Positions 6,252 to 27,587 of a stretch of DNA of 40,127 nucleotides are shown piece by piece. The stretch is from Eubacteriales bacterium. GTDB lineage: Bacteria > Bacillota > Clostridia > Lachnospirales > Lachnospiraceae. Where the stretch lies: contig JAUNJN010000007.1 of NCBI GenBank assembly GCA_030533235.1, positions 1-40,127 on the forward strand, in the 5' to 3' direction. Position 1 is the stretch's first letter. Each line of letters begins with the position of its first letter. The notes beneath the pieces are model-generated. The model searched no databases, was not told the DNA's origin, and saw only the letters and a list, made by a program, of their open reading frames with translations. Both the position numbers and the translations under genes were made by a program.

Positions 6252-6299
6252 TAACAATGTTTGAATCATAATAGACGGTGCCGTTACATGTGTGAAAAT

Positions 6300-6490
6300 C
6301 TTGTTATTTTGACATCATGCTAATGGTTAAAAGGGAAACAGGTGCAAAACCTGTGCGATCTCGTCACTGTAAGCAAGGAGTATAGATCAAGGTGTACTGC
6401 CCGGGGATTATCCCAGAGTACACAGTCACTGGCGATTTGCCGGGAAGGCTGGTCTATATGTTGATATGCGAGCCAGGAAACCTGCCGGCT
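6300..6490 (+). promoter_or_regulatory. Cobalamin (B12) riboswitch aptamer
   Basis: Recognised from its conserved blocks in order: aaaaGGGAAacaGGTG near 6331-6345, a GTCACTGTA block near 6363, a second GTCACTGG block near 6425, GGGAAGGC near 6442, and the B12 box AGCCAGGAAACCTGCCGGC at 6471-6489. Long-range pairing supports the fold: TATAGATC (6381-6388) with GGTCTATA (6451-6458), and GTGTACT (6392-6398) with AGTACAC (6417-6423). By family precedent, adenosyl- or other cobalamin binding turns the downstream genes off. Exact ends are approximate. Short open frames crossing this region are not genes. Confidence 0.92.
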
Positions 6491-6542
6491 ATTGGTACAG
6501 GAATAACAGATTCCGGATCACGAGGCATTGATCGTACCGTAT

Positions 6543-6565
6543 CCATAATACGCACGGTATTATGG
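6543..6565 (+). promoter_or_regulatory. Hairpin in riboswitch expression platform
   Basis: CCATAATAC (6543-6551) and GTATTATGG (6557-6565) form a perfect 9-bp stem with a 5-base loop. It excludes an alternative pairing of TACCGT (6535-6540) with ACGGTA (6554-6559). This switching pair sits between the B12 box and the terminator and probably relays the ligand signal; the exact mechanism is inferred. Confidence 0.45.
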
Positions 6566-6572
6566 CTGTTAC

Positions 6573-6606
6573 TCCGTCAGGTATGATTTCACTGGCGGAT
6601 TTTTTT
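6573..6606 (+). terminator. Riboswitch-controlled intrinsic terminator
   Basis: TCCGTCAG (6573-6580) pairs with CTGGCGGA (6592-6599), with one G-U pair, followed at once by a run of seven T. It lies between the B12 aptamer and the first gene, which suggests control by premature termination when cobalamin is bound. Confidence 0.75.
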
Positions 6607-6666
6607 CTGTACATTCTTTTGATTCGAAACCGCAAGTTGCGGATTTTATTTCAGGAGGAAGAAAGA

Positions 6667-7917
6667 ATGAAAAAGAAAAAGGAAAAAGTCTATTTTTTAG
6701 TAGGCGCGTGCTTGACTGCAGCATTGTTCGTCGGCTGCGGAAAGGAAAAGAAGGAAAAAACAACGGAAACACGAACAACAGTAGAGGTAAATACCGAGGC
6801 AGAAAATACGGTATCAGATGCTTCTACAGAAGAAATGTCTAATCAGGAAAAGGCTGATTACGTTGCAGCATTGATTGATGCGATTTATGTTCAGACAAGA
6901 ACAGACGAGACAGATGCACAGTGCACGGCTGCAAAGGAAGCATGGGATGCTCTTACAGATGAGCAGAAAGCTCTTGTAGAAGGTGAATATGCGGATGCTG
7001 ATTATTTTGGCAGAGATACAGGAGATGCATCAAAGGATGATCCATTAAATGCGGATGAAATCGGTGAGAATGAAATTCTTGTAGTAAGCTTTGGCACATC
7101 CTTTAATGATAGCCGCGTCCAAGATATTAGTGGCATTGAGAAGAAAATACAGGCGGCCTATCCGGAATGGTCTGTACGGAGAGCATTTACGGCACAAATT
7201 ATCATAAACCATGTGCAGGCAAGAGATGATGAAAAGATTGATAATGTCAAGCAGGCCTTGGATCGCGCCGTTGCGAACGGAGTAAAAAATCTTGTGATTT
7301 TGCCAACGCATCTTATGCATGGCGCTGAATATGATGAACTCGCTGAGGAAGTTGATAATTATAGGGATCAATTTGAAAATGTTGTAATTGCGGAGCCTTT
7401 GCTTGGAGAGGTTGGCAATGATGCAACGATAATCAATGCAGATAAAGAAGTCGTTGCAAAGGCTGTTGTTGAAGAAGCTTACCAGGATGCAGGCTATGAA
7501 AGTCTCGATATTGCAAAGGAGGATGGCGTAGCATTTGTTCTTTTAGGACATGGTACAAGTCATACAGCAAAGGTTTCCTATTCTCAGATGAGTACACAGA
7601 TGGAAACGCTTGGATATGAGAATGTTTTTATTGGGACAGTCGAAGGGGAACCGGAGGAAACACTGTGCGACAATGTTATCGCTTCTGTTAAGGCGGCCGG
7701 ATACACGAAAGTGATTCTGCGTCCGCTTATGGTTGTAGCCGGAGATCATGCAAATAATGATATGGCCGGTGACGATGATGATTCATGGAAGTGTATGTTT
7801 GAAGCATCAGGATATTTTGAAAGTGTTGATTGTCAAATCGAAGGTCTTGGAAGAATTGATGCGGTGATAGATCTTTATATCGCACACACAAAGGCGGCTA
7901 TCGACAGTATTCAGTAA
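6667..7917 (+). CDS. cbiK: Exported CbiK-like cobalt chelatase lipoprotein
   Basis: CbiK enzymes insert cobalt into sirohydrochlorin in anaerobic B12 synthesis. The 416-residue product carries a lipoprotein signal (Lys-rich start, hydrophobic core, LFVGC with Cys24), so it should be anchored outside the membrane. A Glu/Thr-rich linker and a small helical segment of about 60 residues precede the CbiK domain, which starts at LVVSFGTSFNDSR. Likely metal or tetrapyrrole ligands are H215/H218 (PTHLMHG), H295 (LGHGTSH) and H361 (VAGDHANND); H295 and H361 probably match the two catalytic His of Salmonella CbiK. The start at 6667 follows caggaggaag; an upstream extension of the frame runs into the riboswitch terminator and is rejected. 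It is the first gene of a B12-riboswitch operon with an ABC importer. Its true substrate outside the cell is unknown; metal or tetrapyrrole binding or remodelling is as likely as synthesis. Confidence 0.85.
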   Translation: MKKKKEKVYFLVGACLTAALFVGCGKEKKEKTTETRTTVEVNTEAENTVSDASTEEMSNQEKADYVAALIDAIYVQTRTDETDAQCTAAKEAWDALTDEQKALVEGEYADADYFGRDTGDASKDDPLNADEIGENEILVVSFGTSFNDSRVQDISGIEKKIQAAYPEWSVRRAFTAQIIINHVQARDDEKIDNVKQALDRAVANGVKNLVILPTHLMHGAEYDELAEEVDNYRDQFENVVIAEPLLGEVGNDATIINADKEVVAKAVVEEAYQDAGYESLDIAKEDGVAFVLLGHGTSHTAKVSYSQMSTQMETLGYENVFIGTVEGEPEETLCDNVIASVKAAGYTKVILRPLMVVAGDHANNDMAGDDDDSWKCMFEASGYFESVDCQIEGLGRIDAVIDLYIAHTKAAIDSIQ

Positions 7918-7971
7918 TAGATTGCTATTTTGCTACATAAAATTGATGAATGAATGGAAAAAGGAAAAGAA

Positions 7972-8883
7972 ATGAAGAAAAAAACAGCATTATTTGGTTT
8001 ATCGGCTATGCTTGTTATAGTTATGTCGGGATGTGGAAAAAAAGAAGAGAGTACAACAATTGCTGCAACGGAAGCGATTGTTACGCAAGCAACGGTATCT
8101 GATGCATCTGTAACTGATGCAACCATTGAGGAACCAAAGACAGAGGAGGTATCGTCATGTAGTTTGGAGGATGGGACATATGTTGTTGATTTTGAAACAG
8201 ATAGCAGCATGTTCCATGTAAACGATTCAAAAAATGGCAAAGGGCTTCTTACAGTTGAAGATGGCAAGATGACAGTTCATATTGTTCTTACTTCAAAAAA
8301 TATCGTTAATCTTTATTACGGTCTGGCCGAGGATGCGCAAAAGGAAGGTGCAAAACTGCTTGAGCCTACACCGGAGGAAGTAACATATGCGGACGGAACT
8401 TCAGAAGAGGTAAACAGCTTTGATGTGCCGGTTCCATATCTTGACAAGGAATTTGATGTTGCTTTGATTGGAAAGAAGGGTGTTTGGTATGATCATACGG
8501 TCAGTGTATCAAATCCTGAAACAATTGGTGCCACGAATCAAAGCATGACAGTTGTAGCATGCGAAGACGGAGAATATACAATTGAAGTGACACTGGAAGG
8601 AGGCTCGGGAAAAGCGACTGTAGAAACACCGACAAAAATTGTTTTTTCTGATGGCATGGCAGTTGCAACGATTGTCTGGAGCAGTGATAAGTATGATTAC
8701 ATGATTGCAGATGAAACGAAATATTTGCCTGTTAATACAGAAGGTAATTCGACGTTTGAAATACCTGTTTATGCATTTGACTACAAAATGACCGTGATTG
8801 CTGATACAACAGCTATGAGCACTCCGCATGAGGTAGAGTATACACTTTATTTTGATTCCACAACACTAACAAAGGTAGAGTAA
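7972..8883 (+). CDS. Lipoprotein with two NEAT-like beta domains
   Basis: The start at 7972 gives a clean lipoprotein signal (VMSGC, Cys21); an in-frame ATG at 7954 is possible. After a Thr/Ala/Glu-rich linker come two related beta-rich segments. The first opens LEDGTYVVDF and the second EDGEYTIEVTLEGGSGKATVE; each has a 'K or A, then S-S/SS, then Tyr' block (LTSKNIVNLYYGL; IVWSSDKYDYM) and a PVPYLDKEFDVALIG / PVYAFDYKMTVIAD strand pair. The layout resembles NEAT or iron-transport-associated domains that bind haem in Gram-positive walls, but this is recognition by eye and not certain. Its position between the chelatase and the binding protein suggests that it captures or hands over a tetrapyrrole. 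It overlaps the next gene by one base (TAATG), so the two are translationally coupled. Confidence 0.7.
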   Translation: MKKKTALFGLSAMLVIVMSGCGKKEESTTIAATEAIVTQATVSDASVTDATIEEPKTEEVSSCSLEDGTYVVDFETDSSMFHVNDSKNGKGLLTVEDGKMTVHIVLTSKNIVNLYYGLAEDAQKEGAKLLEPTPEEVTYADGTSEEVNSFDVPVPYLDKEFDVALIGKKGVWYDHTVSVSNPETIGATNQSMTVVACEDGEYTIEVTLEGGSGKATVETPTKIVFSDGMAVATIVWSSDKYDYMIADETKYLPVNTEGNSTFEIPVYAFDYKMTVIADTTAMSTPHEVEYTLYFDSTTLTKVE

Positions 8884-10088
8884 TGAAAAGGATAAAAAAA
8901 GTATTATTACTGATTGTATTTTCGATTACTATAATGTTCCCCTGTGCCTGTTCACAGGGGAATGTTGTATCAACGGATAATGAATCAGAAGACACAACAA
9001 AAAATACAGATACAACACAATATAGTACCGAAGTCAAGTGGTCAAAGCTTCAAAAAACGGGAAGCGAAATGCTGGAGTATGCCGAGCAGTTTGCAATTGA
9101 TTACTATGAAGGCGGGTATGTACTTCTTACAATATACGATAGCGGAAAGTATTTGATTGTCCCTGAAAACAATAGTATCCCAAGCGACCTGGACTCTGAC
9201 ATAATTGTGATACAACAGCCAATTCGCAATGGATATTTGCAGGCGACCGCTGCTATGGATTTAATCCGGGAAATTGACAGTATTTCTTGTCTTTCTTTTG
9301 TCGGGACAGATCGTGACGGTTGGTATATTGAGGCAGCAAAAGAAGCCTTTGATGAAGGTATCATAACATATGCAGGCAAGTATAACGCTCCGGATGTTGA
9401 AAAACTGATAGCCGGAGCCTGCGATATTGCAATCGAGTCGACGATGATTTTTCATAGTCCGGAAATAAAGGAACAGTTAGAAAATGTCGGAATTCCGGTT
9501 TTGGTTGAACGCTCAAGCTATGAAACACATCCGTTCGGAAGGCTGGAATGGATAAAGGTTTACGGGCTGCTGTTTGATCAAATGGATGTGGCAAAGTCGT
9601 ATTTTGACAGTCAGACAGAAAAGTTAGATGAAATTGATTCGGATACAGCATATGAAAAAAGCATTGCGTTTTTTTATGTTACAAATAATGGTTGTGTAAG
9701 TGTCAAAAAATCGGGCGATTATGTTTCTGAAATGATACAATTAGCGGGTGGAGATATTGTTTCTTTTGACGATGCAACAGAAGAGGAAAATGCTTTGTCT
9801 TCAATGACAATTCAGATGGAAGCCTTTTATGCAAATGCAAGAGATGTCGATTATTTGGTTTATAACAGCTCCATTGATGAAAATATTACGGATATGCAAC
9901 AATTGCTTGATAAAAATCCTTTGTTTGCAGATTTTAAGGCTGTGAAAGAAAAACATGTGTGGTGCACAGGAAAAAACATGTTTCAGGAAAGTACTGGAAT
10001 TGGGGACATGATTATGGATTTTCATAAGATACTTGAAAATCCGAATGTTTCAGACGAAGAACTTACTTATTTGCATCGAGTAAAATAA
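8883..10088 (+). CDS. ABC transporter substrate-binding lipoprotein, FecB/BtuF type
   Basis: The 401-residue protein has a lipoprotein signal ending FPCACS (Cys23 the likely lipidated residue) and an acidic Thr/Asp-rich linker. The body resembles class III periplasmic binding proteins for siderophores, haem or cobalamin: an N-lobe with ESTMIFHSPEIKEQLENVGIPVLVERSSYETHPFGRLEWIKVYG preceded by repeated beta-alpha units, a linking helix (LFDQMDVAKSYFDSQTEKL), and a C-lobe ending in VWCTGKNMFQESTGIGDMIMDFHKIL. The segment GRLEWIKVYGLLF is typical of BtuF/FecB-like proteins. The gene is coupled to the preceding lipoprotein and followed by FecCD and FecE homologues. Riboswitch control points to cobalamin, cobinamide or a related tetrapyrrole as ligand; this is inferred. 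Confidence 0.85.
   Translation: MKRIKKVLLLIVFSITIMFPCACSQGNVVSTDNESEDTTKNTDTTQYSTEVKWSKLQKTGSEMLEYAEQFAIDYYEGGYVLLTIYDSGKYLIVPENNSIPSDLDSDIIVIQQPIRNGYLQATAAMDLIREIDSISCLSFVGTDRDGWYIEAAKEAFDEGIITYAGKYNAPDVEKLIAGACDIAIESTMIFHSPEIKEQLENVGIPVLVERSSYETHPFGRLEWIKVYGLLFDQMDVAKSYFDSQTEKLDEIDSDTAYEKSIAFFYVTNNGCVSVKKSGDYVSEMIQLAGGDIVSFDDATEEENALSSMTIQMEAFYANARDVDYLVYNSSIDENITDMQQLLDKNPLFADFKAVKEKHVWCTGKNMFQESTGIGDMIMDFHKILENPNVSDEELTYLHRVK
8939..8960. repeat. Perfect inverted repeat inside the lipobox codons
   Basis: CCCCTGTG (8939-8946) and CACAGGGG (8953-8960) flank a 6-base loop. The stem is GC-rich in an AT-rich gene and covers the codons of the lipidation motif. It could slow translation or be incidental. 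Confidence 0.6.
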
Positions 10089-10100
10089 CAGGGAGACCCT

Positions 10101-11135
10101 ATGATGAAAAAAGGAAACAACATAAATAAGAAATATGGTTTATGCTTTGCTATTTTGCTTGTACTGCTTTTTGTTTCAGTCATATCAAGTATTTCTGTCG
10201 GCAGTACAAATATTTCCTTCAAAGAAGTATGGAATGCTTTGTGTGGTAATAAAGATAATATAGTGGTATATCGAATTATTTGGGATGTTCGCATGCCAAG
10301 GATTTGTGCTGCTATATTTTTAGGAGGCGCATTAACAGTTTCCGGATATTTATTGCAGATCTTTTTTTCAAATCCGATTGCAGGACCCTTTGTGCTCGGA
10401 ATTTCTTCCGGAGCAAAGCTTACGGTTGCACTGGCAATGATTTGTTTTATCAGCAATGGTGTACAGATGAGCTCCGGTATGCTTGTTTTGTCGGCATTTA
10501 TCGGCTCTATGGTTTCGATGGGCTTTGTGTTGCTTGTTTCAGGCAAGGTTAAGAATATGGCAATGCTCGTTGTATGTGGTGTTATGATTGGTTATATATG
10601 CTCCGCAATTTGTGATTTTATAGTTGCCTTTGCTGAAGATTCCAATATTGTCAATTTACATAACTGGTCGCTTGGAAGCTTTGCCGGGATGTTATGGAGT
10701 CATGTGAGCTGTATGGCTGTTGTTATAACACTCGCTATTATATGTGTATTTCTGCTGTCAAAACCAATGCATGCATATCAGCTTGGAGAAGAGTATGCAA
10801 AAAATCTCGGAGTAAACATCAAACGGTTTCGGTTAGCTATTATATTATTATCCGGTATATTATCTGCCTGTGTAACGGCATTTGCAGGTCCGATATCGTT
10901 TGTCGGAATAGCAGTTCCCCATTTGATACGTGTGATGTTTAAAACATCAAAGCCTATGGTTCTTGTGCCAGGCTGTTTTCTGGGGGGAGCCTGTTTTTGT
11001 TTGATTTGTGATATGATTGCACGAACGGTATTTGCACCAATTGAGCTTTCTATTAGCTCTGTAACAGCAATATTCGGTGCTCCGATTGTTATTATTATGC
11101 TTGTCAAACGCAAGTCAAATCATACAAGAGGATAG
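10101..11135 (+). CDS. ABC transporter permease, FecCD/BtuC family
   Basis: The 344-residue membrane protein shows the FecCD family pattern: an N-terminal helix (YGLCFAILLVLLFVSVISS), the conserved stretch VRMPRICAAIFLGGALTVSGYLLQ, the family block NPIAGPFVLGISSGA, and near the end GPISFVGIAVPHLIRVMF followed by MVLVPGCFLGGACFCLICDMIARTVFAPIELSISSVTAIFGAP, all typical of permeases for iron chelates and B12. About ten helices are expected. The ribosome binding site gggag serves ATG 10101 or ATG 10104; the start is ambiguous by one codon. It sits 12 bases after the binding protein and is followed by the ATPase gene, completing the importer. Confidence 0.93.
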   Translation: MMKKGNNINKKYGLCFAILLVLLFVSVISSISVGSTNISFKEVWNALCGNKDNIVVYRIIWDVRMPRICAAIFLGGALTVSGYLLQIFFSNPIAGPFVLGISSGAKLTVALAMICFISNGVQMSSGMLVLSAFIGSMVSMGFVLLVSGKVKNMAMLVVCGVMIGYICSAICDFIVAFAEDSNIVNLHNWSLGSFAGMLWSHVSCMAVVITLAIICVFLLSKPMHAYQLGEEYAKNLGVNIKRFRLAIILLSGILSACVTAFAGPISFVGIAVPHLIRVMFKTSKPMVLVPGCFLGGACFCLICDMIARTVFAPIELSISSVTAIFGAPIVIIMLVKRKSNHTRG

Positions 11136-11145
11136 GAGGGGCACT

Positions 11146-12249
11146 ATGGAATATGTATTAACAGAACAGATGCGTGTCGGCTATGGAAAGCACGAAATTG
11201 TACAAAATATTAATCTTCACCTGAAACGCGGTGAAATTATGACGTTAATCGGTCCAAATGGTGTTGGAAAATCAACGATATTAAAGAGTTTTACTAGACA
11301 GCTTTCTATGCTTGGCGGTACATGCGTACTTGACAATAAGGAACTTGAAACATATAACGACCGTGAACTTGCAAAAAAAATGTCGATTGTACTGACCGGT
11401 CGGGTACAGGGAGAATACTTTACATGCAAAGATATCGTAGAGAAAGGACGTTATCCCTATACCGGAAGCTTTGGGATTTTTTCTGATGAAGATCACAGGA
11501 AGGTCATGGAAGCCCTTGAATTGGTAAATATGAAGGATTATGCGGATTGTCTGTTTGAACAGTTAAGTGATGGTCAAAAACAACGTGTGTTGCTTGCAAA
11601 AGCCGTTTGTCAGGAACCGGAAATTCTTGTTTTGGATGAGCCGGCTTCATTTCTGGATATTCGCTACAAACTTGAACTCGCTCAAATTCTGAAGCATTTG
11701 GCGAAAGAGAAAAATATGGCAATTCTTATGGCATTGCATGAAATTGATTTAGCAAAACGTATATCGGACATTGTTGTTTGTATAAAAGACGGTAAGGTTG
11801 ATCAGTACGGGGAACCGGAGGATATTTATTCATCTGATTATATTTCGAAATTATATGATATAAAACAGGGAAGCTATAACGTGGAAGGATCTCTTATGGA
11901 GTTACCACCGGTAAAAAATCCACCGGAAATCTTTGTGATTGCAGGAGGCGGTTTTGGAATTTCTGTATATCATAAGCTTTGGCGAAAACAGATTCCATTT
12001 GCAGCAGGGGTTCTTCACGAAAATGATATCGAAACACCGGTAGCGAAATCACTGGCAACTTCTATTGTTCTGGAACGTGCCTTTGAGCCTGTAAGTGAAG
12101 AGAAAATGATGGAAGCAAAGAAAATTCTACAGTATTGTAAGTCTGTTATTTGCGCGTGTGAACAGTTTGGTACGATGAATCAAAAAAATAAATTGCTGCT
12201 TGATTATGCAATAAAGCAAAATTTGTTGATTGATGCAAACAAATTGTAA
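11146..12249 (+). CDS. ABC transporter ATPase, FecE/BtuD family, with extra C-terminal domain
   Basis: The start at 11146 follows aggagggg; a longer in-frame extension into the permease gene lacks support. The 367-residue product has Walker A GPNGVGKST (36-44), signature LSDGQKQR (140-147), Walker B with D164/E165 (LVLDEP) and an H-loop (ALHE). Usual family length is about 250-260. From about residue 255 a further 110 residues follow: IFVIAGGGFGISVYHKL (GGGFG at 267-271), then IPFAAGVLHENDIETPVAKSLA and a Cys-containing stretch CKSVICACEQFGTMNQKNK. The glycine-rich start suggests a Rossmann-like fold, perhaps a sensor or nucleotide/cofactor site coupled to transport. I do not recognise a named domain. 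It is the last gene of the riboswitch operon; no clear terminator follows. Confidence 0.9.
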   Translation: MEYVLTEQMRVGYGKHEIVQNINLHLKRGEIMTLIGPNGVGKSTILKSFTRQLSMLGGTCVLDNKELETYNDRELAKKMSIVLTGRVQGEYFTCKDIVEKGRYPYTGSFGIFSDEDHRKVMEALELVNMKDYADCLFEQLSDGQKQRVLLAKAVCQEPEILVLDEPASFLDIRYKLELAQILKHLAKEKNMAILMALHEIDLAKRISDIVVCIKDGKVDQYGEPEDIYSSDYISKLYDIKQGSYNVEGSLMELPPVKNPPEIFVIAGGGFGISVYHKLWRKQIPFAAGVLHENDIETPVAKSLATSIVLERAFEPVSEEKMMEAKKILQYCKSVICACEQFGTMNQKNKLLLDYAIKQNLLIDANKL

Positions 12250-12268: not shown

Positions 12269-12297
12269 TTGAGAAATGATTTCAAATCATTTATAAT
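12269..12297 (+). promoter_or_regulatory. Sigma-A promoter of prfC with palindromic spacer
   Basis: TTGAGA (12269-12274), a 17-base spacer and consensus TATAAT (12292-12297). The spacer is filled by a 19-bp palindrome, described separately. The predicted start is near 12304, giving a leader of about 50 bases. Confidence 0.7.
12274..12292. promoter_or_regulatory. 19-bp palindrome in the prfC promoter (putative operator)
   Basis: AAATGATTTCAAATCATTT is a perfect 9-1-9 palindrome running from the last base of the -35 box to the first base of the -10 box. That is the classic place for a repressor or a MerR-type activator. It resembles the size of Fur/PerR/Zur boxes but does not match their consensus in register. 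No adjacent regulator gene is present. Confidence 0.5.
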
Positions 12298-12317
12298 AAA
12301 TAGACGATTATGCATAG

Positions 12318-12336
12318 CATTTTGTTATGCAAAATG
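12318..12336. repeat. Inverted repeat in the prfC leader
   Basis: CATTTTG (12318-12324) and CAAAATG (12330-12336) surround ttatg, just upstream of the prfC ribosome binding site (ggagga, from about 12343). It could form a weak 7-bp hairpin in the leader. Confidence 0.4.
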
Positions 12337-12352
12337 GTATTTGGAGGAAGAC

Positions 12353-13948
12353 ATGGCAGAAGCATTTAAGCAGGAAATAGAGAAACGAAGAACCTTTGCA
12401 ATTATATCGCATCCGGACGCAGGTAAAACAACACTTACAGAAAAATTGTTGTTATACGGTGGTGCAATTAATACAGCCGGTTCGGTAAAGGGAAAGGCGA
12501 ATTCAAAATACGCTGTGTCGGATTGGATGGGAATTGAGAAGGAGAGAGGTATTTCGGTTACATCCTCTGTATTACAATTTCACTATAGTGATTTTTGTAT
12601 CAATATCCTGGATACACCGGGACATCAGGACTTTTCTGAAGATACGTATCGTACACTTATGGCTGCAGATTCGGCAGTTATGGTTATCGATGCTTCAAAA
12701 GGTGTAGAGGCACAGACAATTAAACTTTTTAAGGTTTGTGTCATGCGCCATATCCCGATTTTTACATTTATTAACAAGATGGACTTAGAGGCAAGAGATT
12801 CCTTTGAGCTTCTGGACGAAATTGAAAACGTTCTTGGAATACGTACATGTCCGATTAACTGGCCGATTGGAGCCGGAAAACGTTTTAAGGGCGTGTATGA
12901 CAGAAATACAAAGAAGGTGTCAACTTTTCAGGCAGTTTCGGTTGGTGGCGCAAAGAGTGCGGAAGAGACGGAATATCATGTAGATGATCCTGCGCTGAAA
13001 GAGTTGGTCGGTGATGAGTTGTTTGATCAGCTTCATGAAGAAATCGAGTTATTGGATGGAGCCAGTGATGCATTTGATCAGGAACTTGTTGATAAAGGTG
13101 AGTTATCACCGGTTTTTTTCGGTTCTGCACTTACAACCTTTGGAGTGGAGACATTTTTGGAACACTTCCTTCGGATGACACAGTCTCCGCTTGCCAGAAC
13201 TTCGGATATCGGTATGATTGACCCGGTTGAGGAACCGTTTTCAGGGTTTATATTTAAAATTCAGGCAAACATGAATAAAGCACATCATGACCGGATTGCA
13301 TTTATGCGAATTGCATCCGGCAAGTTTGATGCGTCAAAAGATGTATATCACGTTCAGAGCGGTCGTAAGTTGAAGCTTTCACAGCCACAGCAAATTATGG
13401 CGCAGGAACGTAAGGTGATTGAAGAGGCATATGCCGGAGATGTAATTGGTGTATTTGACCCGGGGATTTTTTCCATTGGAGATACACTTTGTACACCGGG
13501 TAAAAAATTTACCTACGAAGGTATTCCGACATTCGCACCGGAACATTTTTGCAGAGTGGTACAATTGGATTCGATGAAGCGTAAGCAGTTTAATAAAGGA
13601 GTTACACAGCTTGCACAGGAAGGTGCCATTCAGATTTTTCAGGATTATTCACTTGGGTTATCAGAGATTATTGTGGGTGTTGTAGGTGTTCTTCAGTTTG
13701 ATGTATTAAAATACCGTTTAGAGAACGAATATGGATGTGACATACGTTTGGAGCCATTGCCATACAATTATATTCGTTGGGTAAAAGATCCTTCCACCGA
13801 TCTTACTTCGTTAAAACGTATTAGTGATTGTAAGAAGGTGAAGGATATGAAAGACAATCCGCTGTTGCTTTTTGCAAATGAGTGGTCAATCCGCTTGTTG
13901 CTTGAACATAATGAAGGATTGGAATTGGAAGAATTCAAAAAAAATTAG
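12353..13948 (+). CDS. prfC: Peptide chain release factor 3
   Basis: RF3 is a translational GTPase that recycles RF1/RF2 from the ribosome after termination. The start at 12353 follows ggaggaag and gives 531 residues, the usual RF3 length. G1 is SHPDAGKTT (19-27), followed by the switch region with ERGISVTSS, G3 DTPGHQDF, and G4 NKMD; the RF3-specific block GVVGVLQFDVLKYRLENEYG lies near the C-terminal end. It has its own promoter with a palindrome in the spacer. The next gene starts 49 bases downstream with no terminator between, so the two are probably cotranscribed. Confidence 0.96.
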   Translation: MAEAFKQEIEKRRTFAIISHPDAGKTTLTEKLLLYGGAINTAGSVKGKANSKYAVSDWMGIEKERGISVTSSVLQFHYSDFCINILDTPGHQDFSEDTYRTLMAADSAVMVIDASKGVEAQTIKLFKVCVMRHIPIFTFINKMDLEARDSFELLDEIENVLGIRTCPINWPIGAGKRFKGVYDRNTKKVSTFQAVSVGGAKSAEETEYHVDDPALKELVGDELFDQLHEEIELLDGASDAFDQELVDKGELSPVFFGSALTTFGVETFLEHFLRMTQSPLARTSDIGMIDPVEEPFSGFIFKIQANMNKAHHDRIAFMRIASGKFDASKDVYHVQSGRKLKLSQPQQIMAQERKVIEEAYAGDVIGVFDPGIFSIGDTLCTPGKKFTYEGIPTFAPEHFCRVVQLDSMKRKQFNKGVTQLAQEGAIQIFQDYSLGLSEIIVGVVGVLQFDVLKYRLENEYGCDIRLEPLPYNYIRWVKDPSTDLTSLKRISDCKKVKDMKDNPLLLFANEWSIRLLLEHNEGLELEEFKKN

Positions 13949-13997: not shown

Positions 13998-16523
13998 ATG
14001 ATATTAATCGACACACAAAAAGAAGAATTTAATAAGCTAAAGGATATTCATATCTTCGACAAGATTGATAATGAAAAGCGGTTTCACGGAGATTTGCTTG
14101 TAATCGGTCTTGGCGGAATCGGAAGTCGTGTTGTATGTAATCTGAAGGGCATGCTTATGGGTGAGATTACTCCGGATGATAACATTAATTATTTGATGAT
14201 TGATTCTGATATTCCGGCAATGGAGACGATGATTGAAGACAGCAAAGACGGCGTTGGTCTTAACGCAACCGAAATCATTAGCATTTATCGCCCAAACCTT
14301 GACAATTTGCTTGTAAACGGAATCAAGGAAAACACAGTTCATCCAAATCTTGCAAACTGGATGCCGGAGGATTTTCCGATATTAAATATCGATATGGACG
14401 GAGCGAGAGGCAATCGTCAGCTTGGTCGATTGATGCTTTCGAATGCATATGAGGATGTTCGTATGCTGTTATTTGACCGAATTGATGAAATCTATGCAAA
14501 GTCAAAATCCGGTGGTCTCGATGTCATATTGGTCAGCTGTGTTGCAGGAGGTACGGGTAGTGGCATTTTATCAGATATTGCCTACAATATTCGAGCTTAT
14601 GCAAAGGCAAGAAAGCTTAAGAATTTCCGTCTGGGCGGATGCCTTCTTATGCCGGATGTTTTGTATAGTAACATTAAGATTAAAGAAGATATGGAACTGA
14701 TGACGCTGTTAAACGCAAATGGCTATGCGACGTTAAAAGAAATTGATTATTATATGCGTCTTGAAAAGCGTGAGAAGCCATATGTGTTTGAGAGTACAAC
14801 GCATCGTATATCAATGTGTGAAAATATATTTGATGCATGTATGCTTGTTTCCGGAAAAAAGGATGAACAGGGATATATTCCGGAAGGAATTATCTACAGT
14901 GATACAGCATATTTTCTTTCGAAGCTTGCGACTATGAAATATGTCGGAAATGAAAAAACACAGTCGGAACGCAGGCTGTTCCGTGATGTATTTTTCAGTG
15001 GCGAGGACCGGGGATACTATAAAGTTATCAATAACTCGGATTATCGAATTCCGATACGTGAAATTGAGAATATATGTGAGCATGAGACGTTCGTTGAAGC
15101 GTATAAGCTGTTACATAAATCAATTGCGGAGGAAGAAGTTCAAGCACAGGTTTCCTATGCATTACAAGAGCTTGATACATTTTTATCCCAAAAGGCCGGT
15201 GATCCGATTAATCTAAATGTAAATGGGCTGATTCGTATGAATCAATTTAAGCGACCGACATACAAGCAGATTAAGAAAAATCAGGATGAACTTCGACCTG
15301 CTATGGGAGAAGAAATAAAAAAATTTAAGGAATTAGTTCCAACGGTAATCAAATTTATCAGAAACAAGATTATTGATACATTAAATGCAAGGCTTACAAG
15401 CTATATGAATGAGTGCGGACCTTATGCGGTTATGGAAATTATCGGTGCGGGCGGTATTGGTAATAATCAAGAAGATCGGGGGATGATTGCGGCAGTACGT
15501 GCCTTGGAAACGAGAATCAAGGATTATCAGCCGACCGGTGAGTTTAGTCGTATTATTGAATCCATTAAAGACATTGTTTCCAAGCGGTTTTTTACGTTCC
15601 CGAATGCAAAGCGAGAAACCGAAAACGGTTATTACGATGCTTGTGTAAAAGAAACCTTGACACTGGAACGTAATATGATTATTGAAGGTATGGATGTTCA
15701 TGATTTGTTTGGAGATATTGTTCGATGGCTGAGGGCAAAGGCAGAACGTTATGATGAGTTATATGCACAGTTTGATGAGGATTTGAAAAATGCGATCGAA
15801 GACCTTGCAAAGGAAGGAAAACGTATTACCGGATTCTTGTTAAAGGATGCGAAACATCATACATTTCTTCCGGCAGATTATATTACGGAAGACCGTATCA
15901 ATGCATTTTATAAGGGGCTTGTACGTTTGCTTGTCGACAATGAATCGAATATTGATAATGGACGATTGGTAACTGTTAAACAGGATATGGAGCGTATTTA
16001 TAACAATCTGCTTGTCGGACTTGGCGTGTATGCGCCTGAAAAACTGATTGCGGTTGCATTTGCGGACGAGAAACCATCGCTTCAGGAGATGAATATGATG
16101 TTTGTTTCTTCAGAAAACGTGACACGTGAGGAATTGATGATGCGTGCCGCGAAGGCTTTTGTTGAGGGAGCAAGCGAAAAAACGCAAAAGAAAAAGCTTT
16201 GTATTTTAAGACCGGGCTTTAAGGTGAATCTTGTAAACAAAAAATATATTTCATTGCCGGCAATTATGCCGCATTTTGCAGAGGCGGTTACAAGCGTTCT
16301 TACAGGCGCACCATATAAAGAATCGCTGGATACGATTGCTCAAAATACCGGTGATGTTGCAATTTCGGTTGATGATATGTATATTGCCGTTCCGCTCTCC
16401 ATGCTTATGTGTATGGATGATATGCGTATGGCATATCATGCGGTTGTACAGACAGATTATATGGGACTTCATATTGATGAGGTTAACTTAGATATGGTAA
16501 AAGAATATCCGGAAATTGCATAG
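13998..16523 (+). CDS. Tubulin-like protein (Tubulin_2 / FtsZ superfamily)
   Basis: The 841-residue cytoplasmic protein has a tubulin/FtsZ-type GTPase region: a Rossmann start LVIGLGGIGSR (34-44), acidic segments around NYLMIDSD, and the T4-loop-like signature AGGTGSG (183-189) followed by ILSDIAYNIR. This fits the Tubulin_2 family (PF13809), part of the FtsZ-like groups proposed from genome context to act in membrane remodelling. The rest, from about 330, is a long mostly helical region unlike FtsZ, ending in a mixed domain with PLSMLMCMDDMRMAYH. I see no membrane segment or signal peptide. The ribosome binding site is gagggtgg. The usual vWA or membrane partners reported for relatives are not adjacent. 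The molecular role is unknown; GTP binding and filament formation are inferences from the motif. Confidence 0.75.
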   Translation: MILIDTQKEEFNKLKDIHIFDKIDNEKRFHGDLLVIGLGGIGSRVVCNLKGMLMGEITPDDNINYLMIDSDIPAMETMIEDSKDGVGLNATEIISIYRPNLDNLLVNGIKENTVHPNLANWMPEDFPILNIDMDGARGNRQLGRLMLSNAYEDVRMLLFDRIDEIYAKSKSGGLDVILVSCVAGGTGSGILSDIAYNIRAYAKARKLKNFRLGGCLLMPDVLYSNIKIKEDMELMTLLNANGYATLKEIDYYMRLEKREKPYVFESTTHRISMCENIFDACMLVSGKKDEQGYIPEGIIYSDTAYFLSKLATMKYVGNEKTQSERRLFRDVFFSGEDRGYYKVINNSDYRIPIREIENICEHETFVEAYKLLHKSIAEEEVQAQVSYALQELDTFLSQKAGDPINLNVNGLIRMNQFKRPTYKQIKKNQDELRPAMGEEIKKFKELVPTVIKFIRNKIIDTLNARLTSYMNECGPYAVMEIIGAGGIGNNQEDRGMIAAVRALETRIKDYQPTGEFSRIIESIKDIVSKRFFTFPNAKRETENGYYDACVKETLTLERNMIIEGMDVHDLFGDIVRWLRAKAERYDELYAQFDEDLKNAIEDLAKEGKRITGFLLKDAKHHTFLPADYITEDRINAFYKGLVRLLVDNESNIDNGRLVTVKQDMERIYNNLLVGLGVYAPEKLIAVAFADEKPSLQEMNMMFVSSENVTREELMMRAAKAFVEGASEKTQKKKLCILRPGFKVNLVNKKYISLPAIMPHFAEAVTSVLTGAPYKESLDTIAQNTGDVAISVDDMYIAVPLSMLMCMDDMRMAYHAVVQTDYMGLHIDEVNLDMVKEYPEIA

Positions 16524-20293: not shown

Positions 20294-20350
20294 TAATAAG
20301 GTTTAAGCTCTTTTTTTACAGTATTGGAAAATAAGATGGAGATGTATAAA

Positions 20351-21259
20351 ATGAAGTTTCAGGTTAGTCAGATTTTAAAGAAAATTGATGTGAAGAACGG
20401 TAAGAAAAATGTCGAGTCGAAGACATCGCAAGCTCCTGTAACTGAAGCACAAAAAAGTGATGCTGCACAGGATAATCAGACAGAGGCAACAACTGTTTGT
20501 CCAAAGTGTAAGCAGGAGTTTAACAAAGCAGATGTAAAGGCGAATTTAAACGTTTGTATGTCATGTGGATACCATTATGTGATTTCAGCGGAGAGACGTG
20601 TGAAATCCTTAGTAGATGCAGGCACATTCCGACCACTTAAGTGTAAGGTTGCTTTTGCAAATCCGTTGGATTATCCGGAATATGAGGATAAGATTACTTC
20701 ACTTCAGAAGAAGACAGGTCTTGAGGAAGCTGTATATACAGGTGTAGGCAAGATTGATGGATATGAAGCAGTAATAGCAGTTATGAGTAGTAAATTCCTT
20801 ATGGGAAGTATGGGATTGGCAGTCGGTGAGAAGGTTACAAATGCCGTTGAATATGCTGACAAGAAAAAGCTCCCACTTATCATTTTTACTGCAAGTGGCG
20901 GCGCACGTATGCAGGAAGGTATTTTATCCCTTATGCAGATGGCAAAAACAAGTGCCGCAGTTGAGCGTTTCAATCAGAATGGAGGACTTTATATTTCTGT
21001 ATTAACACATCCTACAACGGGTGGTGTTTCAGCCAGTTTTGCAACTCTTGGCGATATTACATTGGCAGAACCTGACGCGTTGATTGGGTTTGCCGGACCT
21101 CGTGTTATCGAGCAAACAATTGGACAAAAGCTTCCTGAGGGCTTTCAGCGTTCGGAGTTCCAGCAGGAGCATGGCTTTGTAGATCAGATTGTTCCGCGTG
21201 ATAAGATGCGTGAAACACTTGCGCATATATTACGACTTCATTGTAAGAGAGGTAAGTAG
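20351..21259 (+). CDS. accD: Acetyl-CoA carboxylase carboxyltransferase subunit beta
   Basis: AccD with AccA transfers the carboxyl group from biotin to acetyl-CoA, giving malonyl-CoA. A zinc ribbon (CPKC from Cys50, then CMSCGYH) precedes the crotonase-fold carboxyltransferase region with TASGGARMQEGILSLMQMAKTSAA and HPTTGGVSASFATLGD. I chose ATG 20351 because GGAG lies nine bases before it; in-frame ATG 20336 and 20342 and TTG 20324 are alternatives. The tail before the zinc ribbon is polar, Lys/Thr-rich and somewhat longer than in E. coli. First gene of the fab operon; accA follows after two bases. Confidence 0.94.
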   Translation: MKFQVSQILKKIDVKNGKKNVESKTSQAPVTEAQKSDAAQDNQTEATTVCPKCKQEFNKADVKANLNVCMSCGYHYVISAERRVKSLVDAGTFRPLKCKVAFANPLDYPEYEDKITSLQKKTGLEEAVYTGVGKIDGYEAVIAVMSSKFLMGSMGLAVGEKVTNAVEYADKKKLPLIIFTASGGARMQEGILSLMQMAKTSAAVERFNQNGGLYISVLTHPTTGGVSASFATLGDITLAEPDALIGFAGPRVIEQTIGQKLPEGFQRSEFQQEHGFVDQIVPRDKMRETLAHILRLHCKRGK

Positions 21260-21261
21260 CT

Positions 21262-22203
21262 ATGGTCAAGGAAATAGATGCAAGAATCAATGAGATTGAT
21301 AAAGAGATAGAAGATATTAAAAGCAAGGAAGTTGTTGATGAGGCTCAAATTTATGTATTAAAGAGAGAACGTCATGACCTTGTGAAGATGTGCAAGAACT
21401 TGGATCCTCATGATAAGGTTTTTCTTGCAAGACATAAGAAAAGACCAAAAATCACAGAGTATATCGATGCGATTTTTGATGATTTCTTCGAGCAAAAGGG
21501 TGATGCCCTTGGCAAAGAAGACGGAAGTATTTTTGGCGGAATTGCAACCTTCGATGGTATGCCTGTTACAGTTATCGGTCATCGTAAGGGAAATGATTTG
21601 GCAGAAAATCTTGCTTGTAATTTTGGTATGCCGGGACCGGAGGGCTATCGCAAAGCACTTCGTCTGATGAAGCAGGCAGAGAAGTTTGGCAGACCAATTA
21701 TTACATTTATTGATACACCCGGCGCATATCCGGGAATTGAAGCGGAAACAAACGGACAAAGTCAGGCTATTGCCACAAACCTTGCGAAGATGAGTGCGTT
21801 AAAGGTTCCTGTCATTGCAATCGTAACAGGCGAGGGAAGCAGTGGTGGTGCACTTGCAATCGGTGTTGCAAACAGTGTACTTATGCTTGAAAACGCTGTT
21901 TATTCAATACTTTCACCGGAGGGGTATGCAACCATTCTCTGGAAAGATTCAACGAGAAGCGATGAGGCTTGTAGTATGATGAAGCTCACAGCACAGGATC
22001 TTAAGGATTTTCATGTAATTGATGAGATTATTCCTGAGCCTATCGGAGGTGCACATCTTAATCCAAAGCTCGTTTATAAGGTTGTAGAGAAGTACATTCG
22101 ACGTGAGCTTGCCAAGTATTCCAAGATGGGACCTGATGAATTAGCAAAGCACAGATATAAGAAATTTCGTACAATTGATTCTGACTATTTGAATTTACTA
22201 TAA
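21262..22203 (+). CDS. accA: Acetyl-CoA carboxylase carboxyltransferase subunit alpha
   Basis: The partner of AccD in the carboxyltransferase heterotetramer. 313 residues, with an N-terminal helical region (ARINEIDKEIEDIKSKEVVDE in shorter segments), then the crotonase core with DGMPVTVIGHRKG, the FGMPGPEGYRKALRLM block, FIDTPGAYPG and GEGSSGGALAIGVAN. The biotin carboxylase and carrier subunits (accC, accB) are not in this window. Spacing of 2 bases to accD and 9 bases to fabH indicates one transcript. Confidence 0.96.
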   Translation: MVKEIDARINEIDKEIEDIKSKEVVDEAQIYVLKRERHDLVKMCKNLDPHDKVFLARHKKRPKITEYIDAIFDDFFEQKGDALGKEDGSIFGGIATFDGMPVTVIGHRKGNDLAENLACNFGMPGPEGYRKALRLMKQAEKFGRPIITFIDTPGAYPGIEAETNGQSQAIATNLAKMSALKVPVIAIVTGEGSSGGALAIGVANSVLMLENAVYSILSPEGYATILWKDSTRSDEACSMMKLTAQDLKDFHVIDEIIPEPIGGAHLNPKLVYKVVEKYIRRELAKYSKMGPDELAKHRYKKFRTIDSDYLNLL

Positions 22204-22212
22204 GGAGACGAC

Positions 22213-23154
22213 ATGCAGGTAAAAGATGGATTACGCATTGTAGGACTTGGACATTATGTTCCTGATAATACAGTGACAAATGATGATTTAAGTAAGATTG
22301 TTGATACAAATGATGAATGGATTGCCACTAGAACAGGTATCCGTAAGCGTCATTTTGTTACAACAGAGCGCAATCAGGATATGGCGATTGCTGCCGCAAA
22401 GATGGCAATTAAAGATGCCGGTATTGATCCTTTGGAAATTGGTGCATGTATCGTAGCAACGATTCGTCCGGATAATATGACACCTGCCGTAGCATGCATG
22501 GTTCAAAAAGAGGTCGGTCTTCCGACAGAGATTCCTTGTTTTGATATCAATGCAGCGTGTTCAGGATTTATGTATGGTGTTCGTGTTATGCGTGGCATGC
22601 TCATGCAAAGCGATAAACGTTACGGGTTAGTAATTGGTAGCGAGACTTTATCAAAAGTCTTAAATATGGAAGATCGTGGAACCTGCATTCTATTTGGTGA
22701 TGGAGCGGGTGCTGCAGTTATTGAGTTGTCAGATGACCATCGTTACTTCAGTATTTTAGGTACAAAGGGTGATGATGAGGTTTTAGTCTGTCCAAATGAC
22801 GGAGACAGATTTGTTCGCATGAATGGACAGGAAGTATTTAAGTTTGCTGTTTCAACTGCACCGGATACGATTAATCAGATTCTTGATATGGCCGGATTAT
22901 CGGCCGATGATATTGACCATTATGTGTGTCATCAGGCAAATCTTCGTATTATTTCATCGGTAGCAAAGAAATGTAAACAGAGCATCGATAAATTCTATGT
23001 AAATCTTGATGAGTACGGCAATACTTCTTCGGCAAGTATTCCAATCGCGCTTAGCGAGATGAAACAAAAGGGATTATTAAAGAGCGGAGATAAGGTTGTT
23101 TGTGCCGGTTTTGGCGGCGGTCTTACATGGTGTGGCGCATATTTTGAGATATAA
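22213..23154 (+). CDS. fabH: Beta-ketoacyl-ACP synthase III
   Basis: FabH starts each fatty acid by condensing an acyl-CoA with malonyl-ACP. The catalytic triad is visible as C116 (NAACSGFMYG), H240 (CHQANLRI) and N270 (YGNTSSAS). The C-terminal GFGGGLTWCGAYFEI is the family end. 313 residues is slightly short but complete. The aaggagacgac ribosome binding site lies right after accA. Confidence 0.96.
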   Translation: MQVKDGLRIVGLGHYVPDNTVTNDDLSKIVDTNDEWIATRTGIRKRHFVTTERNQDMAIAAAKMAIKDAGIDPLEIGACIVATIRPDNMTPAVACMVQKEVGLPTEIPCFDINAACSGFMYGVRVMRGMLMQSDKRYGLVIGSETLSKVLNMEDRGTCILFGDGAGAAVIELSDDHRYFSILGTKGDDEVLVCPNDGDRFVRMNGQEVFKFAVSTAPDTINQILDMAGLSADDIDHYVCHQANLRIISSVAKKCKQSIDKFYVNLDEYGNTSSASIPIALSEMKQKGLLKSGDKVVCAGFGGGLTWCGAYFEI

Positions 23155-23166
23155 GGAGAAATACAT

Positions 23167-24102
23167 ATGTTATTAAATGAAATGTTAAATATTAAGTATC
23201 CGATTATTCAGGGTGGAATGGCAAATATTGCTCTTGGCGAGTTCGCAGCTGCCGTATCCAATGCCGGTGGTCTTGGACTTATCGCATCCGGTGGTTTTGA
23301 TGCAGAACGTATTCGTGAGGAGATTCATAAGTGCCGTGCACTTACAGATAAGCCATTTGGTGTCAACTTAATGTTAATGAATCCGGATGTTGACAATATA
23401 GCAAAAATGTTAGTTGAGGAGAAGGTAGATGTTATTACAACCGGTGCCGGTTCTCCGGAAAAATATGTAGCTGATTGGAAGGCTGTTGGCAGTAAGGTTA
23501 TTCCGGTTGTTGCCAGTGTTACCCTTGCAAAGCGTATGGAACGTATGGGTGTAGATGCAGTGATTGCTGAAGGTGGCGAGAGTGGCGGACATGTTGGAGA
23601 GATGACAACAATGGCGCTTGTTCCTATGGTAGTTGATGCACTTAACATTCCTGTTATTGCAGCGGGTGGTATTGCTGATGGAAGAGGAATGGTTGCAGCA
23701 CTTGCGCTCGGTGCGGTTGGTATCCAGATTGGTACAGTATTGCTTGCAAGTGATGAATGTCCGATTCATGAAAATTATAAGCTTGCAGTCGTTAAGGCAA
23801 AGGACAACGGGACAGCAGTTACAGGTCGTAAGGCAGGAGCTCCTGTTCGTGTAATTAAGAACCATATGACAAGAGAATATCTTAAGATGGAGAGTGAAAA
23901 TGTTTCAAGAGATGAGCTTGAGCAGCTTACACTTGGTTCTCTTCGCAAGGCTGTTTTAGAGGGCGATACAAAGTATGGTTCACTTATGGCAGGTCAGATT
24001 AGCGGTCTTGTTGCTGATATTAAGCCGGTTGCAAAAATTCTTGATGAAATTTATGAGGGTGCAAAGGCTGAACTTGCTAAGCTTAATACTTTTGGTTTAT
24101 AG
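23167..24102 (+). CDS. fabK: Enoyl-ACP reductase II (FMN)
   Basis: FabK is the FMN-dependent enoyl-ACP reductase of the elongation cycle, used in place of FabI in many Firmicutes. The 311-residue TIM barrel shows PIIQGGMANIALGEFAAAVS at the start, GGLGLIASGG, the AEGGESGGHVGE loop, and PVIAAGGIADGRG followed by LGAVGIQIGT, as in nitronate monooxygenase-related FMN enzymes. Location inside the fab operon separates it from nitronate monooxygenases. This enzyme type is insensitive to triclosan by family precedent. Confidence 0.93.
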   Translation: MLLNEMLNIKYPIIQGGMANIALGEFAAAVSNAGGLGLIASGGFDAERIREEIHKCRALTDKPFGVNLMLMNPDVDNIAKMLVEEKVDVITTGAGSPEKYVADWKAVGSKVIPVVASVTLAKRMERMGVDAVIAEGGESGGHVGEMTTMALVPMVVDALNIPVIAAGGIADGRGMVAALALGAVGIQIGTVLLASDECPIHENYKLAVVKAKDNGTAVTGRKAGAPVRVIKNHMTREYLKMESENVSRDELEQLTLGSLRKAVLEGDTKYGSLMAGQISGLVADIKPVAKILDEIYEGAKAELAKLNTFGL

Positions 24103-24111
24103 GAGGATACT

Positions 24112-25056
24112 ATGAGAATTGGTTTTTTATATGCCGGACAAGGTAGTCAGTGTGTAGGTATGGGAAAGGACTTCTATGAGAAGTATTCGGAAGTTGCGGA
24201 GACCTTTAACAATGTTTCGATCGATTTTGATGTAAAGGAATGCTGTTTTGAAGGACCTATCGAAAAGCTAAGCCGGACGAGATATACACAGCCTTGTATG
24301 GTAACCTTTGCAGTTGCCATTACAAAGCTGCTAAAATCGAAAGGGATTGTTCCTGAAATGGCGGCAGGTCTTTCGCTTGGTGAGTATTCAGCACTTTATG
24401 CGGCAGGTGTTTTTGATGAAAAACAGGTTGTTGATTTAGTTGCTTATCGTGGGAAGTCGATGGAAGAAGCAGTTACAGGCAGGGATACAGGTATGATTGC
24501 GGTTATGAATCTTGACCGTGAGTCAATCAAGGCTTGCTGTAAGAAAGCAGAGGAAGAATTTGCGGATTCTCCTTATCATATTGCGGAGGTGGCAAACTAT
24601 AATACACCAACACAGGTTACTGTTTCCGGTGATTCTCCTGTTATTGCACGTGCAGGTGAGCTTATGACAGAAGCAGGTGCAAAGCGCATTGTTCCTGTTG
24701 CAGTAAGCGGACCATTCCACACATCGTTAATGAAACCTGCCGGAGACAAGCTTGCAGAGCGTTTCAAGTGTGAGAATTTCGGGGATTTGCAGTTTCCTGT
24801 AATCTTTAACGCGACAGGTACTGAGATTACGTCAGATACTACAATTGCTGAGATGCTTGAGAAACAGGTACAAAGTTCCGTATATTTTGAAGATTCAATC
24901 AAATATATGATGGATAACGGTATTGATACATTTGTTGAGATTGGACCCGGTAAGACACTTAGTGGATTTGTTAAGAAAATTGATCGTAGTTATACTACAT
25001 ATTCAATTTCGGATGTAGAGAGCTTCGAAGCATTTCTTGCAGATATGGAGGCATAA
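24112..25056 (+). CDS. fabD: Malonyl-CoA:ACP transacylase
   Basis: FabD moves malonyl from CoA to ACP. GQGSQ near the start, the nucleophile S88 in GLSLGEYSAL, and H203 in GPFHTSLM are the active-site marks; VEIGPGKTLSGF lies near the end. 314 residues, normal length. aggag ribosome binding site. In many Clostridia acpP lies near here; here the gap to fabK is only nine bases and holds no ACP gene. Confidence 0.96.
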   Translation: MRIGFLYAGQGSQCVGMGKDFYEKYSEVAETFNNVSIDFDVKECCFEGPIEKLSRTRYTQPCMVTFAVAITKLLKSKGIVPEMAAGLSLGEYSALYAAGVFDEKQVVDLVAYRGKSMEEAVTGRDTGMIAVMNLDRESIKACCKKAEEEFADSPYHIAEVANYNTPTQVTVSGDSPVIARAGELMTEAGAKRIVPVAVSGPFHTSLMKPAGDKLAERFKCENFGDLQFPVIFNATGTEITSDTTIAEMLEKQVQSSVYFEDSIKYMMDNGIDTFVEIGPGKTLSGFVKKIDRSYTTYSISDVESFEAFLADMEA

Positions 25057-25059
25057 AAT

Positions 25060-25803: not shown

Positions 25804-25825
25804 TTTTTGTGAAAAGAGGTTTAAA

Positions 25826-27575: not shown

Positions 27576-27587
27576 AGAGGTATGTAT

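Follow-up and report, generated by a model that had tools for sequence, protein, structure and literature searches.

We describe a five-gene module in a 40,127-nucleotide stretch of DNA from a member of the Lachnospiraceae (Eubacteriales bacterium, GenBank assembly GCA_030533235.1, contig JAUNJN010000007.1; hereafter the window), whose relatives inhabit animal guts. A cobalamin riboswitch precedes genes for an exported CbiK-type chelatase, a two-domain NEAT-like lipoprotein, and an ATP-binding cassette (ABC) importer. Sequence comparisons lead us to propose, with a probability of roughly 0.6, that this module serves to scavenge an early tetrapyrrole, sirohydrochlorin or a similar ring, which would receive its cobalt outside the membrane before import for B12 synthesis. 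Within the family, exported CbiK occurs almost only in genomes that encode CbiD of the corrin pathway, and many of these genomes lack the genes for the early steps of ring synthesis.

A cobalamin riboswitch heads a chelatase and importer gene run

The module comprises the following features (window positions).

6264..6503, + strand: cobalamin riboswitch aptamer (RF00174; cmscan 85.9 bits, E 5.7e-20, gathering score 31.5)
6573..6606, + strand: intrinsic terminator, probably the expression platform (stem of 8 bp, loop of 11 nt, then seven T)
6667..7917, + strand: exported CbiK-type cobalt chelatase, a lipoprotein (PF06180; lipobox LFVGC)
7954..8883, + strand: two-domain NEAT-like lipoprotein (from alignment with relatives; probable start ATG at 7972)
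8883..10088, + strand: FecB/BtuF-class substrate-binding lipoprotein (PF01497, 107.8 bits)
10101..11135, + strand: FecCD/BtuC/HmuU-class permease (PF01032, 273 bits)
11146..12249, + strand: ABC ATPase (PF00005), extended at its C-terminus by a domain of ~105 residues

The five genes are co-directional and tightly packed. The aptamer exceeds the curated gathering score of its family, and the terminator, in which 6573-6580 pairs with 6592-6599 ahead of a T run at 6600-6606, lies upstream of the first gene; the fold of 6500-6620 had a z score of -3.42, and none of 200 shuffles was equally good. A hairpin scan limited to loops of 3-8 nucleotides left this hairpin unlisted because of its longer loop and listed a smaller one at 6630-6642. 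An earlier note on this DNA, made from the sequence alone, had read a riboswitch with terminator before an exported CbiK lipoprotein, followed in one run by a two-domain lipoprotein and a FecB, FecCD, and FecE importer. Both readings are borne out, the former by the RF00174 match and the fold (the aptamer begins slightly before the position of 6300 given there) and the latter by Pfam families and the lipobox.

The same note suggested a gene-neighbourhood search, and the layout does recur among relatives. A cobalamin riboswitch lies 5′ of exported CbiK in 27/29 relatives (loci L003-L031; absent from L010 and L031), as well as at L074, L085, and L104 and in all nine named loci scanned from the 80 fetched; none was found at L086 and L088, where only ~0.3 and ~0.6 kb of contig precede the match. 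Gene architecture was examined at 54 family loci (of 68 genomes with exported CbiK) and at 80 named loci, the best 80 of 552 relatives, with the following counts.

Feature: family loci; best 80 named loci
Unbroken binding protein, permease, and ATPase: 40/54; 63/80
NEAT-like domain present: 52/54; 79/80
CbiK fused to NEAT-like domain: 15/54; 42/80
NEAT-like domain fused to binding protein: 16/54; 39/80
ATPase-CbiP fusion: 6/54; 14/80
cob/cbi gene downstream in the run: 25/54; 42/80

In 17 of the 20 relatives read (all but G180, G196, and G118), the module stands at the 5′ end of a series of B12 genes on one strand, which includes, in varying order and content, CbiP, CobT, CobU, CobS, CobC, CbiB, CobD, CbiC, CbiD, CbiG/F, CbiH, CbiJET, and CbiA; module and cbi genes are probably transcribed together. 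By match coordinates, exported CbiK lies within ~25 kb of CbiD in 29/68 genomes. The fusions argue that the chelatase, the NEAT-like domains, and the binding protein share one substrate and that the importer would act in the service of B12 synthesis. Named isolates with exported CbiK belong to Roseburia, Coprococcus, Butyrivibrio, Pseudobutyrivibrio, and Fusicatenibacter; at the loci of Coprococcus and Fusicatenibacter, CbiK is accompanied by one NEAT-like domain and the run has no importer.

Exported CbiK occurs with the corrin pathway and often without early ring-synthesis genes

We surveyed 200 genomes from 199 genera of the family, locating CbiK with the window protein, which found a match in 126/200. 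The DNA was examined for all listed matches except G063:C96 and G166:C24, and copies were sorted into exported and cytosolic forms with a rule based on signal peptide and lipobox. Four were classed by eye (G002, G121, G105, and G168): the copies in G121 and G105 lack the lipobox cysteine after their signal peptide, and in G168 the N-terminus was not seen and a NEAT-like domain precedes the chelatase. Genomes with a single weak unlisted match (G003, G042, G060, G106, G165, G167, and G198; E 3e-5 to 8e-4) were counted as lacking CbiK, the cytosolic class takes in weak paralogues, and G063 is filed as cytosolic only despite two fragments of exported-type CbiK on its contigs. On this basis 48 genomes carry only exported CbiK, 20 both forms, 51 only the cytosolic form, and 81 none; exported CbiK is thereby present in 68/200 genomes, with fragments in G063. 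Cut-offs were E <= 1e-60 for CobA and E <= 1e-25 for CbiL, a weak HemB fragment in G149 was excluded, and short-type CbiM was defined by a rule of our own as E under 1e-50 with an open frame of at most 320 residues.

CbiD was found in 68/69 genomes with exported CbiK versus 52/131 others (p 6e-19). The counts by CbiK class are as follows.

Gene: exported only; both; cytosolic only; none
CbiD: 48/48; 20/20; 44/51; 8/81
HemB: 6/48; 16/20; 31/51; 10/81
HemC: 11/48; 20/20; 45/51; 9/81
CobA: 14/48; 20/20; 45/51; 9/81
Short-type CbiM: 0/48; 5/20; 27/51; 1/81
Any CbiM above cut-off: 10/48; 8/20; 33/51; 15/81

When only CbiD-positive genomes are compared, those with exported CbiK alone differ from those with any cytosolic CbiK in HemB (6/48 versus 45/64), HemC (11/48 versus 61/64), CobA (14/48 versus 61/64), and short-type CbiM (0/48 versus 31/64). 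HemB, HemC, and CobA are all missing in 34/48 exported-only genomes, a pattern that also holds for 21/30 at a completeness of at least 95% and 16/22 at at least 98%; at the latter level CobA is present in 6/22 exported-only genomes versus 34/34 with cytosolic CbiK. Across the 68 genomes with exported CbiK, the cytosolic form is missing in 48 and is missing jointly with HemB, HemC, and CobA in 34. Incompleteness of metagenome-assembled genomes was considered as a cause and rejected, since the contrast persists at 90, 95, and 98% completeness; with weak paralogues recounted as no cytosolic CbiK, CobA stands at 17/51 versus 57/60 (p 1.4e-12). Ring synthesis would thus often be impossible where exported CbiK is the sole CbiK, which fits poorly with a cytosolic role for this protein and is consistent with import of the ring.

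The window's own assembly (2.28 Mb, 87% complete) follows this pattern. Its contig C50 carries a corrin cluster with CbiD, a CbiF-CbiG fusion, CbiH, a CbiJ-E-T fusion, CbiA, CobT, CbiC, CobU, CobS, CobC, CbiB, CobD, and the beginning of CbiP (names read from translations, with a family model check for CbiD only), and CbiL lies on contig C31. CbiD and CbiL are likewise present in the congener G180 (100% complete), and HemB, HemC, CobA, and CbiM were not found in either genome. The five TP_methylase matches of the own genome are CbiF, CbiH, CbiE, CbiL, and RsmI, leaving none for CobA. Both genomes therefore show the pattern of a tetrapyrrole precursor salvager, with the corrin pathway present and HemB, HemC, and CobA not found; HemA, HemL, and HemD were not searched. 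A PF06180 profile search of the own genome returned the exported CbiK only, a search with the window CbiK gave two matches, the second weak and unlisted, and the sole CbiX-model match in the own genome and in G180 falls inside exported CbiK. No second, cytosolic chelatase was thus found in the own genome.

The exported chelatase retains its metal ligands

The chelatase domain of the window CbiK matches PF06180 at 234.1 bits (cut-off 26.2) and is separated from the lipobox by a linker of ~110 residues. A biosynthetic CbiK is expected to be cytosolic, whereas the window protein bears a signal peptide and lipobox, and its score against the biosynthetic cobaltochelatase equivalog NF047852 (185.5 bits) is below the curated cut-off of 400. 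Its sequence relatives in the PDB are 1qgo (CbiK), 9b86 (FetB), and 2xvx (98 bits). Residues His145, Glu175, and His207 (1qgo numbering), which we take to be the metal ligands of CbiK, are aligned and identical in the window protein. These positions are invariant in 68/68 exported rows of the alignment, and the Glu is altered in 6/68 cytosolic rows; two exported rows come from G102, none from G011 (which the motif rule missed) or the G063 fragments, and cytosolic rows scoring below 100 bits were left out. This conservation points to retention of metal-insertion chemistry in the exported copies.

On a tree of 136 CbiK domains the exported label requires 4 changes versus 45.6 by shuffling, suggesting that export was gained, or lost, few times. 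Within the exported part of the tree, the presence of cytosolic CbiK changes 11 times and that of CobA 15 times.

Some exported copies have unusual arrangements. In G102 two exported CbiK genes stand in tandem (L048, 12808-16412), with a NEAT-like domain fused to the second, and a T-box and a Clostridiales-1 RNA lie 3′ of the pair (L006). At L018 and L096 exported CbiK has a signal peptide and no lipobox cysteine, and may be secreted or otherwise anchored. The order of domains is reversed at L191 (G168), where the NEAT-like domain is N-terminal to the chelatase in one frame.

The NEAT-like lipoprotein and the importer

The two-domain lipoprotein of the window itself matches no Pfam family; among 21 relatives, 18 match the NEAT family PF05031 at E <= 1, the best at 1e-7. 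No PDB relative of the substrate-binding lipoprotein was found by sequence at E <= 0.01. For the permease, the nearest solved structure is HmuU (185 bits), followed by BtuC (150 bits), and its match to the NCBIfam BtuC equivalog (216.6 bits) is below the cut-off of 334. Residues 7-343 of the ATPase align with the NCBIfam corrinoid ATPase model PRK09536 at 192.9 bits, below the cut-off of 537.

The alignment to PRK09536 extends into the extra C-terminal domain of the ATPase (window 11929-12246). This domain is common in relatives, and some others carry CbiP at that place.

Other features of the window

The downstream neighbour of the module is an open reading frame at 12269-13948 (probable start 12353) that, judged from its translation, resembles peptide chain release factor 3. 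Beyond it lie a tubulin-like Tubulin_2 gene (13998-16523) and a fatty-acid synthesis cluster (20324-27064) with Carboxyl_trans, ACCA, a FabH-like protein, a member of the nitronate-monooxygenase family (probably FabK), an acyl transferase, and a ketoacyl synthase; a ThiD-ThiE fusion (27582-29045) stands 3′ of this cluster.

Discussion

In the scheme that we favour, scarcity of adenosylcobalamin would let the riboswitch permit read-through of the terminator. CbiK, held by its lipid anchor on the outside of the cell membrane, would then bind metal-free sirohydrochlorin (or a near relative) shed by other microbes and add cobalt. The NEAT-like domains would hand the resulting cobalt-tetrapyrrole to the substrate-binding lipoprotein, the permease and ATPase would take it into the cell in its metallated form, and cytosolic enzymes from CbiL (or CbiH) on would complete the corrin. 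If a single transport event brings in both ring and cobalt, then HemB, HemC, CobA, cytosolic CbiK, and CbiMNQO would become dispensable.

Several alternatives deserve consideration. The importer could be related to BtuFCD and carry cobamides or cobinamide, with exported CbiK serving as a corrinoid-binding surface protein; the B12 riboswitch would suit such a role, as would the matches to the BtuC and corrinoid ATPase models, both of which are under the respective cut-offs. We nevertheless consider this unlikely, as only G063 has a trace of exported CbiK among the 80 CbiD-less genomes, in which the need for salvage is greatest. Furthermore, invariant metal ligands would be needless in a protein that binds pre-metallated corrinoids, and corrinoid uptake would not account for why CobA, HemC, and cytosolic CbiK were lost. 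Another possibility is iron acquisition from haem, with exported CbiK removing the iron and the importer taking up iron or haem. Such a role would suit the haem binding of NEAT domains in the Isd system, the position of HmuU as nearest solved permease, and the naming of the relative 9b86 as heme-binding protein FetB. The gene types also match those of the Iht system of Porphyromonas gingivalis, as presented in the available part of PMC10913741. The B12 riboswitch, the gene runs shared with cbi genes, and the co-occurrence with CbiD are at odds with a haem iron system, however, and make it highly improbable. One would expect a scavenger of corrinoids or haem to be frequent also in genomes that lack the corrin pathway, whereas exported CbiK is found almost only with CbiD, and sirohydrochlorin or a near relative is thereby favoured as substrate.

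Two further explanations concern the metal. Surface CbiK might catch cobalt that the importer brings in on a small carrier for some cytosolic chelatase, and the lack of short-type CbiM, part of a cobalt importer, from exported-only genomes agrees with this. FecCD-class importers carry chelates rather than free ions, however, a match to the CbiM/NikM model above cut-off is present in 10/48 exported-only genomes, and the absence of CobA, HemC, and a cytosolic chelatase would again be unaccounted for; we regard this explanation as very unlikely. Class II chelatases can act on both iron and cobalt, and sirohaem is plausible as a community product, such that exported CbiK could instead replace the iron of an environmental metallated ring such as sirohaem by cobalt before import. 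We observed no residue or gene that points to iron removal, and to our knowledge removal of iron from an isobacteriochlorin has not been established for the CbiK family, so we give metal exchange little credence.

The proposed scavenging of a sirohydrochlorin-like ring must itself be viewed cautiously, as a number of observations weigh against it. A full importer does not follow CbiK at 14/54 loci, although some of these contigs end early or have an intervening gene, and no importer gene adjoins CbiK in the congener G180. The fragmented genome of G063, the lone exception to the co-occurrence, has pieces of exported CbiK and no CbiD match. Six exported-only genomes (G002, G029, G037, G083, G153, and G192) keep HemB, HemC, and CobA, and 14/48 keep CobA, such that ring-making is not always lost. 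Eight CbiD-positive genomes have no classed CbiK (G003, G018, G040, G052, G094, G127, G142, and G167); six of these also lack HemB and CobA, and G003 and G167 had a weak unlisted CbiK match. CbiL, the enzyme expected to act on cobalt-sirohydrochlorin, was detected in 18/20 genomes with both forms and 44/44 cytosolic-only CbiD-positive genomes, compared with 27/48 exported-only genomes; it was undetected in the remaining 21/48, including 13 of 30 at a completeness of at least 95%. By eye, no unassigned methylase-like frame was found in nine corrin regions with exported CbiK and without CbiL (L276, L268, L267, L280, L286, L273, L277, L271, and L269). Either a divergent CbiL escaped the search or a ring already methylated at C20, such as factor III, is imported. 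Because the exported form changes so few times on the CbiK tree, the genomes are not independent, and only 4 supported independent pairs are present in the exported tree, too few for significance: CobA differed in the expected direction in ~2.9 and in the opposite direction in 0, and HemB in 2.3 and 0.1 on average, neither being significant. Finally, the scheme presupposes a supply of free sirohydrochlorin in the gut.

With these reservations, the comparative evidence bears out part of what the earlier note proposed. Its idea of a surface chelatase that works with a tetrapyrrole-type importer and is controlled by B12 finds support; its remark that no other cob/cbi genes are present is true of the window and fails for the genome, with its corrin cluster on C50 and CbiL on C31. 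Among the substrates it offered, sirohydrochlorin or a near relative is favoured, and corrinoids, cobinamide, and haem are less so.

Individual components of the module have known counterparts. The periplasmic CbiK of Desulfovibrio vulgaris is also an exported class II chelatase, and 2xvx, presumably the D. vulgaris protein, is a sequence relative of the window CbiK; the D. vulgaris CbiK is not known to stand beside an ABC importer or to substitute for early B12 genes. BtuCDF and HmuTUV share the class of permease and ATPase, but the window permease is below the curated BtuC cut-off and its module is tied to a chelatase and NEAT-like domains. P. gingivalis, which belongs to an unrelated phylum, reportedly has a functional corrin pathway, to go by the title of a study by Roper in 2000. 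Its Iht system (IhtA-E) combines a CbiK-like lipoprotein, IhtB, with a binding protein, permease, and ATPase, and is thought to take iron from haem (PMC10913741, available part). Iht differs in having a TonB receptor; four of the five genes of the window run fall in Pfam families, none of them a TonB receptor, and the fifth is the NEAT-like lipoprotein. It is moreover interpreted as a haem/iron uptake system, and the available part of that source mentions neither a B12 riboswitch nor NEAT-like domains for it. The available part of PMC6461909 describes P. gingivalis as lacking the steps to precorrin-2, and the combination of exported CbiK, an importer, and missing early steps in an unrelated phylum would be the strongest outside hint of a role in corrin synthesis.

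Tetrapyrrole precursor salvagers were defined by Shelton et al., primarily among Firmicutes, as keeping the corrin pathway with the early tetrapyrrole genes gone, as in the genomes considered here; dependence on 5-aminolevulinic acid was tested and found in three species, but neither an uptake system nor an exported chelatase is named in the part available (PMC6461909). In butyrate producers, signature genes are incomplete in most strains called B12 prototrophs, according to the available part of PMC7360928. We did not find the module described in the available parts of the open-licence literature on exported CbiK, sirohydrochlorin uptake, or precursor salvage (including PMC6593275, PMC6461909, PMC10913741, PMC8123684, PMC7360928, PMC12654859, PMC7689651, and PMC13227078). 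We regard it as an Iht-like chelatase-importer module, possibly with a new biological principle. One may further postulate, at somewhat less than even odds, that the outside step is obligatory: surface CbiK would insert cobalt into an isobacteriochlorin (sirohydrochlorin, or factor III where CbiL is lacking), which NEAT-like domains would relay for import; early rings would be traded among gut bacteria; and Iht of P. gingivalis, so far interpreted as haem uptake, would in truth be another instance of this machinery.

The module provides a concrete, testable gene set for the entry of ring precursors into precursor salvagers among the Firmicutes, and could explain bacteria that have a B12 pathway without its first-step genes. 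If our proposal is correct, exported CbiK would be a possible mark of dependence on others in genome-based prediction of B12 synthesis, and the B12 supply of a community would hinge on the exchange of early rings and not on finished cobamides alone.

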